DNA of 50,255 bases. Origin: Clostridia bacterium. Lineage in GTDB: Bacteria; Bacillota; Clostridia; RGIG6154. Location of the stretch: positions 1-50,255 of the forward strand of contig JAFQQW010000038.1 of the NCBI GenBank assembly GCA_017410375.1. Direction: 5' to 3'. Shown in pieces: positions 11,027 to 49,697 of the stretch. Within the stretch, counting starts at the first letter, position 1. Each line of letters starts with the position of its first letter. Both the position numbers and the translations under genes were made by a program. The notes beneath the pieces were generated by a model. The model made no database searches and was not told where the DNA came from. It saw only the letters and a program-made list of their open reading frames with translations.

Positions 11027-11067
11027 AAAAGCACAAGCAATTTTGTCCATTGCTTGTGCTTTTGTTT
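11027..11067 (+). terminator. Terminator after esterase gene (first copy of a shared stem)
   Basis: A 15-bp perfect stem (11027-11041 with 11049-11063), loop of 7 and a T-rich tail. The inner stem GCACAAGCAAT/ATTGCTTGTGC recurs exactly in the terminator at 13992-14019. Confidence 0.85.
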
Positions 11068-11133: not shown

Positions 11134-11162
11134 TTGCCAAATTGAAAAATGTGTGATAGAAT
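11134..11162 (+). promoter_or_regulatory. Sigma-A promoter of structured RNA 1
   Basis: TTGCCA (11134-11139), 17 bases, TAGAAT (11157-11162). The expected start about 7 bases downstream is 11169, the first base of the long closing stem. Confidence 0.65.
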
Positions 11163-11168
11163 GATAAT

Positions 11169-11371
11169 GCTAAACATAACTTAATATATAGTGGCAGGAG
11201 TATTTTTATTTTAGGGATAATACTCTTTATTTGCTATAATGTTTTTTGGATTTGATAAAAACGCAACTCCCTTAAACGTTGTAGCAGATTTATCCTGCCT
11301 TCTTTAAGTTATGTTTAGCGACTGATCGGAGTTTGCGTTTTTTTGCGCCTGCTCCGGTAGGCGCATTTTTT
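11169..11371 (+). ncRNA. Structured non-coding RNA or leader (RNA 1), class unknown
   Basis: A long stem closes the element: 11169-11184 pairs perfectly with 11304-11319 (16 bp). Inside, GGCAGGA (11193-11199) pairs with TCCTGCC (11293-11299), and GCTATAATG (11233-11241) pairs with CGTTGTAGC (11277-11285). The apical loop 11257-11270 is complementary to the tail 11328-11342 with one bulge, giving a possible 14-bp pseudoknot. An intrinsic terminator ends it at 11371, 20 bases before the M23 peptidase ATG. It could be a stand-alone RNA (the long interrupted stem recalls 6S RNA) or a riboswitch-like leader of the peptidase gene. I do not recognise a known riboswitch core in it. Confidence 0.65.
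11344..11371 (+). terminator. Terminator at the end of RNA 1
   Basis: TGCGCCT (11344-11350) pairs with AGGCGCA (11359-11365), loop of 8, then six T. It is so close to the next gene that any expression of that gene from the upstream promoter must pass it. Confidence 0.85.
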
Positions 11372-11390
11372 AATTTTGGAGGAATTTAGG

Positions 11391-13985
11391 ATGATGAAAA
11401 AAATTCTGTTTGGGATTGTGGTTATTTCGACGTTACTTTTGGGGGGTGTAACAACTGTTAGTGCCCAATCTTGGTTATGGCCAATTCCCACAAGCGCGAC
11501 ATTTAGCAAAACGCTGTCGCGAGGGTGGTGGTATAATTCATCAAGTGATTATCACGCCGGAGTTGATATTGCTGTTAGGACCGGTACTGCGGTTATGGCT
11601 TCAAAGGATGGTACGGTATGGAAAGCATATCGAGGTTGTGGTAATTATAGTTGCAATGCTGGATCTTGCTCGTCAAATACCTGTAGCGGGAATGCTCTTT
11701 CAACAAAAAGTAGCAGTGGGTATTGTGGTGAGTCATATGGTAATTCAGTATTTATAAAACATAGTGATGGAACTATCAGTATATATGGTCATTTGAGTGA
11801 AGTTCTTGTAAATGCAGGAGATTCAGTAACGCGAGGACAGATGATAGGTAAAAGCGGAAGCTCAGGATATTCAACAGGTCCTCACTTACATTTTACAATT
11901 ACTACCAAAACTTCCGGGTACTCAAAAAACAGTATTAATAACAATCCGCTTAATAGTGGCATGTCAATTGGAAATAGTAAAACAGATATGGCGGGTGCGA
12001 CCATTACATATGCGATGAAAGAAACAGCAGATTCCACCGCAACAGAAACGCCGGCATACCCAGACAAACCGATAAAATATGTTGTTTGCAGCACAAGTGA
12101 CGCATCTGATATAACTGCAACTTCTGCTAAATTTAATGGTACATTTACCAATCCTGCAGGAGCGAGGATTGTAAAACGAGGTTATCAATGGGGAACTACA
12201 CCGGAAATGTGTAATCTTACGATGTTTGATTGCGATATAACATGGGCAGATGGATTGAGTCACAATATGAAGGGGTTGTCACCAAATACAACATATTATT
12301 TTAAGTTAATTATACAAGATGAAAATGGCAAGTATATTTACGGAAACACCAAATCTGTTACAACGTTATCTAGTGGCATAGAAAAAGTTAGATGCAATAC
12401 TGGCGATGCATATAATATAACAGCAACTTCTGCTGCTTTTAATGGTACGTTTACCAATCCATCTGGAGCAAGGATTGTGAAACGTGGCTTTCAGTGGGGC
12501 ACTACACCTGAGATGTGCAATTTCACTGTATTCGACTGCGATATAACGTGGGCAGATGGTCTAAATCATAATATGACAAATTTAGAGCCAAATACAACAT
12601 ACTATTACAAGTTGATCGTAAAGGGTGAAAATGGCGATTATGTTTACGGAAACCAAAAGACATTTACAACCTTACCGGCACCTGATACTGAAAAACCTAT
12701 AATTACTAATTTAAAAGCTAGGTACATAAGCGAAAAATCATTTACTATACAGTGTAATTTGTATGATAATGCTGATGTAACACGAGTATGGATGGTAATA
12801 TATTCGCCGAATGGCGAGCATCAATTTGGTGCGAGTGCATCAAATGGCGCATTCAGTTATACAGTAAATACTTCCGACTATGGTGGCGCGGGTTATTATT
12901 CAGTACATATATATGCTTTTGATGCAAATAGTAACAGTAGTGGTAAGTATTCGACTGGTAAATTTTTAGTTGCTGACGATACAGTCGCTCCCACACTCAC
13001 CGATTTGACCGTTTCAAATGTTGGTAATAAAGTGTTTGAAGTTAATTGTAATCTTTGGGATAATGTAGATGTCACGCGGTTGTGGATAGTCATATATTGC
13101 CCTAAAGGTGAATTTCAATTTGCAATTCCAGCGAAGCAAGGAACTTTCACTTATCCAATTGATACAGAGCTCTATGGCGGTTTGGGAAAGTATTCAATAC
13201 ATTTATATGCGTTTGATGATGCTGAAAACAGTAGTGGAATGGTTTCTACAGGATCCATAATTCCGCAATACTATATCGGGTATGATGCAAATGGAGGCGA
13301 TGGAGCACCAGGTGTACAGGTGAAAAAATACGGAGAACGATTAATATTAGATAGTACGCAACCGATTCGTGCTGGATATATTTTTAAAGGGTGGTCTAAA
13401 AATTCTGCTTCTACAGAAGTTGATTATTATCCGGGAGATGCATTTGAGGGAAATAATGATTTGATGCTTTATGCTTGTTGGGAACCAATGAGTTTTAAGA
13501 TTACATTTAATGCAAATTTAGCCGGATTTTCGGAAAGTGTAAAAACGGTATGGTATAATTCTAACTATGGAGATATACCGGTTTTATCTAAGGAAGGATA
13601 TGCTTTCCTTGGATGGTTTACTGACCCGTTATATGGGAGTTTAGTTACTGCTAATACAACTGTATCAATTTTAGAAAACCAAACATTATATGCACATTGG
13701 GAATTGTTAGAGCCATTTGTGGAGTCAGTTGTGATGGTTAAGGGAGATGTGCATACGATAAACTCAGAGGTGTATCATGTGGACAGCGGTGTGTTGGTGG
13801 TTGCAGGGTACAAGAGTGGACAGATGGTAGACAAGACATATGTGCCGTACAGCAAGGATATGCCGGATGCAGAGCTGACGGGCGATATTGATGAAATACG
13901 GGTTATGGTCTGGGATGCGCTTGGCAGTTTTAAGCCAGTGTGTGAAATGGAGATTATACCCGAAAGTGAATTTGCGACAGAATAA
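11391..13985 (+). CDS. Secreted multidomain M23 peptidase with paired fibronectin-like, Bsp-like and InlB repeats
   Basis: An 864-residue exported protein. Signal peptide at 1-26 (hydrophobic LFGIVVISTLLLGGV, cleavage after VSA). Residues about 35-190 are a LytM/M23 zinc endopeptidase: His/Asp in YHAGVD, IYGHLSE, and GPHLHF, with a Cys-rich insertion near residue 85. Then come duplicated modules: two near-identical fibronectin-type units with a 102-residue period, two GBS Bsp-like modules (each with a DVTR motif), two InlB/Flg_new repeats ending in YACWEP and YAHWEL, and a C-terminal domain I do not recognise. No anchoring motif or transmembrane tail is seen. Predicted role: cutting peptidoglycan cross-links outside the cell. 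The DNA is more A/T-rich than its neighbours up to about 13780. GGAGG lies 8 bases before the ATG. Confidence 0.9.
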   Translation: MMKKILFGIVVISTLLLGGVTTVSAQSWLWPIPTSATFSKTLSRGWWYNSSSDYHAGVDIAVRTGTAVMASKDGTVWKAYRGCGNYSCNAGSCSSNTCSGNALSTKSSSGYCGESYGNSVFIKHSDGTISIYGHLSEVLVNAGDSVTRGQMIGKSGSSGYSTGPHLHFTITTKTSGYSKNSINNNPLNSGMSIGNSKTDMAGATITYAMKETADSTATETPAYPDKPIKYVVCSTSDASDITATSAKFNGTFTNPAGARIVKRGYQWGTTPEMCNLTMFDCDITWADGLSHNMKGLSPNTTYYFKLIIQDENGKYIYGNTKSVTTLSSGIEKVRCNTGDAYNITATSAAFNGTFTNPSGARIVKRGFQWGTTPEMCNFTVFDCDITWADGLNHNMTNLEPNTTYYYKLIVKGENGDYVYGNQKTFTTLPAPDTEKPIITNLKARYISEKSFTIQCNLYDNADVTRVWMVIYSPNGEHQFGASASNGAFSYTVNTSDYGGAGYYSVHIYAFDANSNSSGKYSTGKFLVADDTVAPTLTDLTVSNVGNKVFEVNCNLWDNVDVTRLWIVIYCPKGEFQFAIPAKQGTFTYPIDTELYGGLGKYSIHLYAFDDAENSSGMVSTGSIIPQYYIGYDANGGDGAPGVQVKKYGERLILDSTQPIRAGYIFKGWSKNSASTEVDYYPGDAFEGNNDLMLYACWEPMSFKITFNANLAGFSESVKTVWYNSNYGDIPVLSKEGYAFLGWFTDPLYGSLVTANTTVSILENQTLYAHWELLEPFVESVVMVKGDVHTINSEVYHVDSGVLVVAGYKSGQMVDKTYVPYSKDMPDAELTGDIDEIRVMVWDALGSFKPVCEMEIIPESEFATE
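12087..12680 (+). repeat. In-frame tandem duplication inside the M23 gene
   Basis: Two consecutive units with a 306-base period (starting at 12087 and 12393) encode fibronectin-like domains that share long identical stretches such as ARIVKRG, QWGTTPEMCN and CDITWADGL. The close match in sequence and spacing indicates a recent internal duplication. Confidence 0.85.
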
Positions 13986-49535: not shown

Positions 49536-49697
49536 AACCACGCAACTGAATATACTAACCATAAGCGTTTGCATTTTTACTTTGGTAAAAGGTGCGAAGC
49601 TTTGTTTTCGTATGCTTATGGTATATGTTGCGTGGTTGCAGGCGAAGCTCGTGCTTTTTCGGTGCGTAGCTTCAGTCTATTGAACTACGCACTTTTT
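49536..49697 (+). ncRNA. Structured non-coding RNA or leader (RNA 2), class unknown
   Basis: The closing stem is AACCACGCAAC (49536-49546) with GTTGCGTGGTT (49627-49637), perfect over 11 bp. It continues as ATATA (49550-49554) with TATAT (49622-49626) and CCATAAGC (49559-49566) with GCTTATGG (49614-49621), with only short 5'-side bulges. An apical hairpin TTTTAC/GTAAAA lies at 49575-49590. AGCTTTG in the loop could pair with CGAAGCT in the tail. A terminator ends it at 49697. A membrane-protein gene follows, so it may be a leader. No known riboswitch core is recognised. Confidence 0.65.
49662..49697 (+). terminator. Terminator at the end of RNA 2
   Basis: GTGCGTAG (49662-49669) and TTCA (49671-49674) pair with TGAA and CTACGCAC (49681-49692) with one bulged C, followed by five T. 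Confidence 0.88.

Follow-up and report, generated by a model that had tools for sequence, protein, structure and literature searches.

A multi-copy leader RNA family of gut and rumen Clostridia predicted to attenuate transcription through competing pseudoknot and antiterminator helices

The element analyzed here occupies positions 11169–11371 of a 50,255-nucleotide contig of a Clostridia bacterium (JAFQQW010000038.1; this whole stretch is referred to as the window). It lies directly upstream of a gene for a secreted M23 peptidase with List_Bact repeats (11391–13985, Pfam assignment), whose Shine-Dalgarno sequence GGAGG is found at 11378–11382; all features are on the forward strand. A sigma-70-type promoter (11134–11162) with the hexamers TTGCCA (11134–11139) and TAGAAT (11157–11162) and a 17-bp spacer is well placed, as the initial annotation had proposed, with TAGAAT positioned six bases ahead of the first stem base. 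The transcript is predicted to start at approximately 11169, the base of the closing stem P1. Further upstream, a separate hairpin followed by a T run (11028–11064; AAAAGCACAAGCAA..TTGCTTGTGCTTTT) is located 3' of a SASA esterase gene and is probably the terminator of that gene.

The closing stem P1 consists of 16 base pairs (11169–11184 with 11304–11319) that are 100% complementary, and it is supported by the computed fold and by covariation. Both inner stems noted previously are present in the minimum free energy (MFE) fold. One is a 5'-side hairpin (11199–11224; stem 11199–11204/11219–11224) that is restricted to type A members of the family described below and varies in sequence among homologues; the other is a long hairpin (11229–11289) with a 16-bp arm (11229–11244/11274–11289) that bears the apical loop, for which the conserved family consensus is TTGatAAAAAtGCAAaTTcc. 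The MFE of 11169–11371 is −73.9 kcal/mol, compared with −40.8 ± 4.1 kcal/mol for dinucleotide shuffles (z −8.16; about 33 kcal/mol below the shuffle average, with none of 200 shuffles as stable). The loop-tail pseudoknot suggested earlier was recovered as 14 bp with one bulge between AAAAACGCAACTCC (11257–11270) and GGAGTTTGCGTTTTT (11328–11342), at about −17.5 kcal/mol; the tail strand as a whole, GGAGTTTGCGTTTTTT (11328–11343), ends in the first T run. The short apical hairpin P4 (11248–11270; pairs 11248–11254/11264–11270) overlaps the loop strand of the pseudoknot and thus competes with it. The intrinsic terminator (11344–11371) was likewise confirmed: its hairpin spans 11344–11365 (TGCGCC..GGCGCA), T6 follows at 11366–11371, and the ATG of the peptidase gene (11391) lies about 20 nt further on. 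One MFE fold contained in its place an antiterminator absent from the initial annotation, in which CTGATCGGAG (11322–11331), overlapping the beginning of the tail strand, pairs with CTCCGGTAG (11352–11360), a stretch that makes up the terminator's loop and 3' arm.

Neither the element nor its homologues matched any family of Rfam 15, including 6S, T-box, c-di-GMP, ydaO and ToxI, at gathering or at permissive thresholds, which rules out a known Rfam family and leaves the RNA unassigned, as first annotated; the sole Rfam match in the whole window at gathering thresholds was a tRNA. A DNA search of the element's own genome yielded two further copies at 77% identity, and additional copies were found in relatives. 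These share a common layout of promoter, stem GCCAAAC..., apical loop GAATTTGATAAAAATGCAAATTCC, stem, tail GACTATCGGAGTTTGCGTTTTT, terminator, ribosome-binding site and gene. Among 391 class genomes, 82 were matched by a covariance model of this type A (R1); in a phylum-wide sample that takes in some class members, the model matched none of 397 genomes other than the element's own. A shorter type B was recognized from divergent matches, and its model (R2) matched 98 of the 391 class genomes. A pattern with an invariant tail retrieved at least 120 such stretches from named genomes, their records carrying the names Clostridia, Oscillospiraceae, Ruminococcus, Christensenella and Pumilibacter (for instance the cultured Pumilibacter intestinalis, L061), many of them from gut or rumen; most named loci were gathered in this way, so that tail variation within type A is hidden. 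The genomes surveyed are largely metagenome assemblies.

Copy numbers in gut and rumen Clostridia reach at least 15 per genome. By R2 the element's own genome holds 15 family copies, one of which, of type B, lies in the window at 49537–49697 and precedes a gene for a small membrane protein; its loop and tail have diverged strongly but match fully (own duplex −20.6 kcal/mol). The terminator and downstream DNA of this copy are nearly identical to those of another copy in the same genome, L234, whereas the leader bodies differ. Also in this genome, three paralogous 82-aa proteins each follow their own diverged leader copy (L236, L240 and L241), and these leaders represent a third subtype with the loop AAAAAGCGUAC. 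Two or three copies lie close together on one strand, as tandem arrays, at L099 (1204–2046, minus strand) and at G000:C57, G181:C14, G257:C59, G257:C80, G021:C5, G362:C33, G253:C42 and G173:C22; tandem arrangement is known for some riboswitches.

Both the closing stem and the pseudoknot are retained in homologues with compensatory changes. In type A (18 sequences), P1 and the pseudoknot were paired in 96.6% of cells, compared with 29–55% in slid controls, and 9 pairs were changed on both sides, compared with 4.0 after shuffling (0/500). In type B (39 sequences), 95.0% of cells were paired and 16 pairs were doubly changed, compared with 9.6 after shuffling (0/500), with double changes in 8 of the 15 pseudoknot pairs. 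P1 together with the antiterminator (85 sequences) gave 95.3% paired cells, compared with 26–54% in slid controls (0/500). As the shuffles keep relatedness, these counts are not probabilities, and the slid controls and tests of cognate pairing are the better guide. The first RNAalifold structure contained P1 and the antiterminator alone, and the pseudoknot was therefore scored separately. Across 136 elements, loops paired better with their own tail than with other tails (−17.2 versus −12.8 kcal/mol), and the same held among the 15 copies of the element's own genome (−16.1 versus −12.1 kcal/mol; 0 of 20,000 permutations). A paralogue in this genome, L026, illustrates the point: with tail GGAGUUGACGU and loop AUGUUGACUCC, its pairing is kept by changes on both sides. 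In type A, covariation of the antiterminator comes mainly from one strong pair, since most of the sampled tails derive from the tail-fixing pattern; the cognate energy test helps here, as does the divergent subfamily L024/L032, in which tail and terminator are both altered and still pair.

The energies of the competing helices were compared. Unless the tail is taken, the antiterminator is favored over the terminator in 122 of 132 elements, by about 5 kcal/mol, and the terminator is favored without the pseudoknot in the other 10. The state with pseudoknot and terminator differs from the state with the antiterminator by about −7 kcal/mol before any pseudoknot penalty, and allowing for this uncomputed cost the two are roughly in balance. 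In the apical hairpin of type B, the A-rich strand pairs with an upstream U-rich strand and leaves GCUC single-stranded, a possible toehold for the tail GGAGC. Conservation is found mainly in the switching strands, in the apical loop and in an AATA next to P1, with little elsewhere; with so little conserved sequence beyond the switching strands and this short motif, no binding pocket can be named.

The family also behaves as a cassette of fixed layout. Of 148 elements, 88 have a −10 hexamer that stops 6 nt short of the first stem base, and 135 have a 17-bp spacer to the −35 hexamer, so that transcription should initiate at the foot of P1. For 127 of 151 copies, a co-directional gene preceded by a ribosome-binding site begins no more than 160 nt downstream (median gap 22 nt); in 79 of these cases the distance from the terminator is 30 nt or less, which leaves no space for another promoter. 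For the remaining 24 copies no gene was found nearby, in some cases because the contig ends. In a set of 110 downstream proteins, 57 Pfam families are represented, the commonest being BspA-type leucine-rich repeats (LRR_5, 13/110), Cu amine oxidase N (6) and MazE/AbrB-like (6), followed by zinc ribbons (5), SLH (3) and CHAP (3). The downstream genes often appear to encode surface or secreted proteins; a crude signal-peptide score was positive in 49% of downstream proteins, compared with 18% of control ORFs from the same loci. Two families of small proteins of unknown function recur directly behind leaders in different genomes, one of about 77 aa (L099, L196, L205, L207, L212) and one of about 60–75 aa (L012, L038, L076, L204, L227). 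Leaders are also repeatedly followed by AbrB/SpoVT-like regulators that carry a CxxC pair at the C terminus (L014, L024, L027, L032, L034, L070).

Taken together, these comparisons make it probable that the element is a cis-acting transcription attenuator built from four overlapping helices. As would be expected of an attenuator, an intrinsic terminator stands just ahead of the gene on what is predicted to be the same transcript, and a mutually exclusive antiterminator is kept by covariation, with weaker support from type A on account of its limited variation. We propose that transcription would begin at the base of P1, and that P1 and the inner arms would fold first and present the A-rich apical loop held in its small hairpin. 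The emerging tail GGAGUUUGCGUUUUU could then pair with the apical loop as a pseudoknot, sequestering the GGAG and so denying it to the antiterminator CUGAUCGGAG/CUCCGGUAG, in which it pairs with terminator sequence. With the GGAG taken, the terminator would form and the peptidase gene would be off; with the loop held or occupied, the tail would form the antiterminator and the gene would be read. The antiterminator thus makes the predicted pseudoknot an anti-antiterminator. Covariation and folding support P1, the pseudoknot, the antiterminator, the terminator and their mutual exclusion as predicted structures; the order of folding, the assignment of the pseudoknot to the off state and the action of a factor or condition on the apical loop are what we infer. 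In one natural copy, L035 (1415–1547), the apical loop has been lost and the own loop-tail duplex amounts to just −4.3 kcal/mol; this copy is predicted to be always on. The initial annotation envisaged a loop-tail pseudoknot, or an alternative long-range terminator made from the same two strands that would give a two-state switch. The loop-tail pairing is retained here, and the picture is extended by the antiterminator and by the multi-copy family, neither of which that annotation contained. On the basis of sequence, we would class the family as a kind of attenuator and not as a riboswitch.

The initial annotation had left open whether the RNA stands alone or is a leader that decides on read-through. 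A stand-alone, trans-acting small RNA, about 200 nt long and with its 3' end at the terminator, with the nearby gene incidental or reached by rare read-through, would agree with the element's own promoter and terminator, its very stable fold and the copies that lack a close gene. Since loops are able to pair with several other tails of the same genome, such an RNA might perhaps act through pairing with the tails of other copies. We nevertheless regard it as improbable: 127 of the 151 copies stand just before a co-directional gene, the close cases have no room for a promoter, a covarying antiterminator would serve no purpose in such an RNA, and the arms vary freely; the leader is the half of the earlier alternative that gained support. 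The presence of as many as 15 copies in a genome, each upstream of an unrelated gene, also recalls a mobile promoter-terminator cassette, MITE-like or of the kind described as mobile attenuators (PMC2965389), that is, a repeat with no regulatory role. This is a very improbable explanation, for similarity ends at the cassette and the flanks are not conserved in the copies compared, the copies of the element's own genome have diverged strongly and yet keep compensatory changes, and some copies have spread with paralogous genes (L236/L240/L241 and L234/L239). Viral contigs contained no match to either the tail or the loop pattern, which also speaks against a mobile cassette and led us to drop a phage origin.

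If the element is an attenuator, what sets it may be of several kinds. It could tentatively be a new orphan riboswitch class, with a broad surface-gene regulon in Clostridia whose leaders all respond to a single signal, the loop-tail pseudoknot displacing the apical hairpin in the manner of a natural toehold switch; if so, up to 15 leaders in the element's own genome, sometimes in tandem arrays, would share that signal. An RNA-binding protein or a trans-acting RNA, in place of a small molecule, could conceivably set the same attenuator at the apical loop or P1, a reading to which we give similarly guarded credence; PyrR, for instance, acts by RNA binding on pyr leaders. The few conserved unpaired bases are concentrated in two places, the apical loop (UUGRUAAAAAYGC) and the flank of P1 (AAUA), as would fit a protein site, and no pocket-like conserved core was apparent; on the other hand, no candidate protein emerged, and autoregulation would predict a dominant downstream protein family, and the commonest, LRR_5, accounts for only 13 of 110. 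It is rather unlikely that the attenuator works with no dedicated ligand, its balance reading temperature, ions or elongation speed or switching surface genes on and off at random. The near balance of the two states in most copies, the AU-rich stems and the diverse, mostly surface-type downstream genes are in line with this, but this reading gives no account of why bases of the apical loop outside the pseudoknot are conserved.

Several candidates were set aside. Leader-peptide attenuation was rejected because no start codon with a Shine-Dalgarno sequence is conserved among 25 members; in several members the apical loop does translate as EFDKNANS. The long closing stem led us to consider a retron, ToxIN or IscB-type RNA, but the first downstream gene encodes the M23 peptidase and no gene of these types stands out among the families listed for the 110 downstream genes. 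The likeness of GCCAAAC/GTTTGGC to an integron attC site is loose, and attC would not be expected to permit the variation of these sequences seen in the family. Cyclic di-GMP is unlikely as the common ligand, as no GGDEF domain was found in three of 20 many-copy genomes (G022, G202 and G253; 95–97% complete); DAC, the c-di-AMP enzyme, is present in 20 of 20 and is too common to be telling.

The family has apparently not been named so far. Surveys covering the human microbiome and 50 bacterial genomes contain thousands of RNA candidates without names (PMC8040213, PMC11109978), and the family may be among them; no description matching it was found in the passages of running text searched in these surveys or in the other papers searched. 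If our reading is right, the family constitutes a large RNA regulon that controls surface display in abundant, little-studied gut and rumen bacteria. The strands that form loop, tail, antiterminator and terminator are all defined, so mutations can be used to fix either state and a simple reporter to look for the signal.

Among known systems, 6S RNA resembles the element in its length of about 200 nt, its long closing stem and its own promoter and terminator; the element differs in its lack of an Rfam match, its many copies, its placement in cis, the pseudoknot and the antiterminator. A similar competition is found in the fluoride, ZTP and preQ1-I riboswitches, which are pseudoknot aptamers before terminators; for the first two, the cited reports describe a co-transcriptional pseudoknot that competes with the terminator-side strand (PMC11077080, PMC10085676). 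Those are compact aptamers with conserved pockets, whereas here the conserved bases lie nearly all in the switching strands and Rfam gives no match. Parallels in logic are also offered by purine-type transcriptional riboswitches and PyrR-controlled pyr leaders, in which three mutually exclusive helices (anti-antiterminator, antiterminator and terminator) likewise decide on downstream read-through. From these the present family differs in its copy number, which reaches 15 in a genome with the copies in front of unrelated genes, and in that its predicted anti-antiterminator is a long pseudoknot between apical loop and tail.
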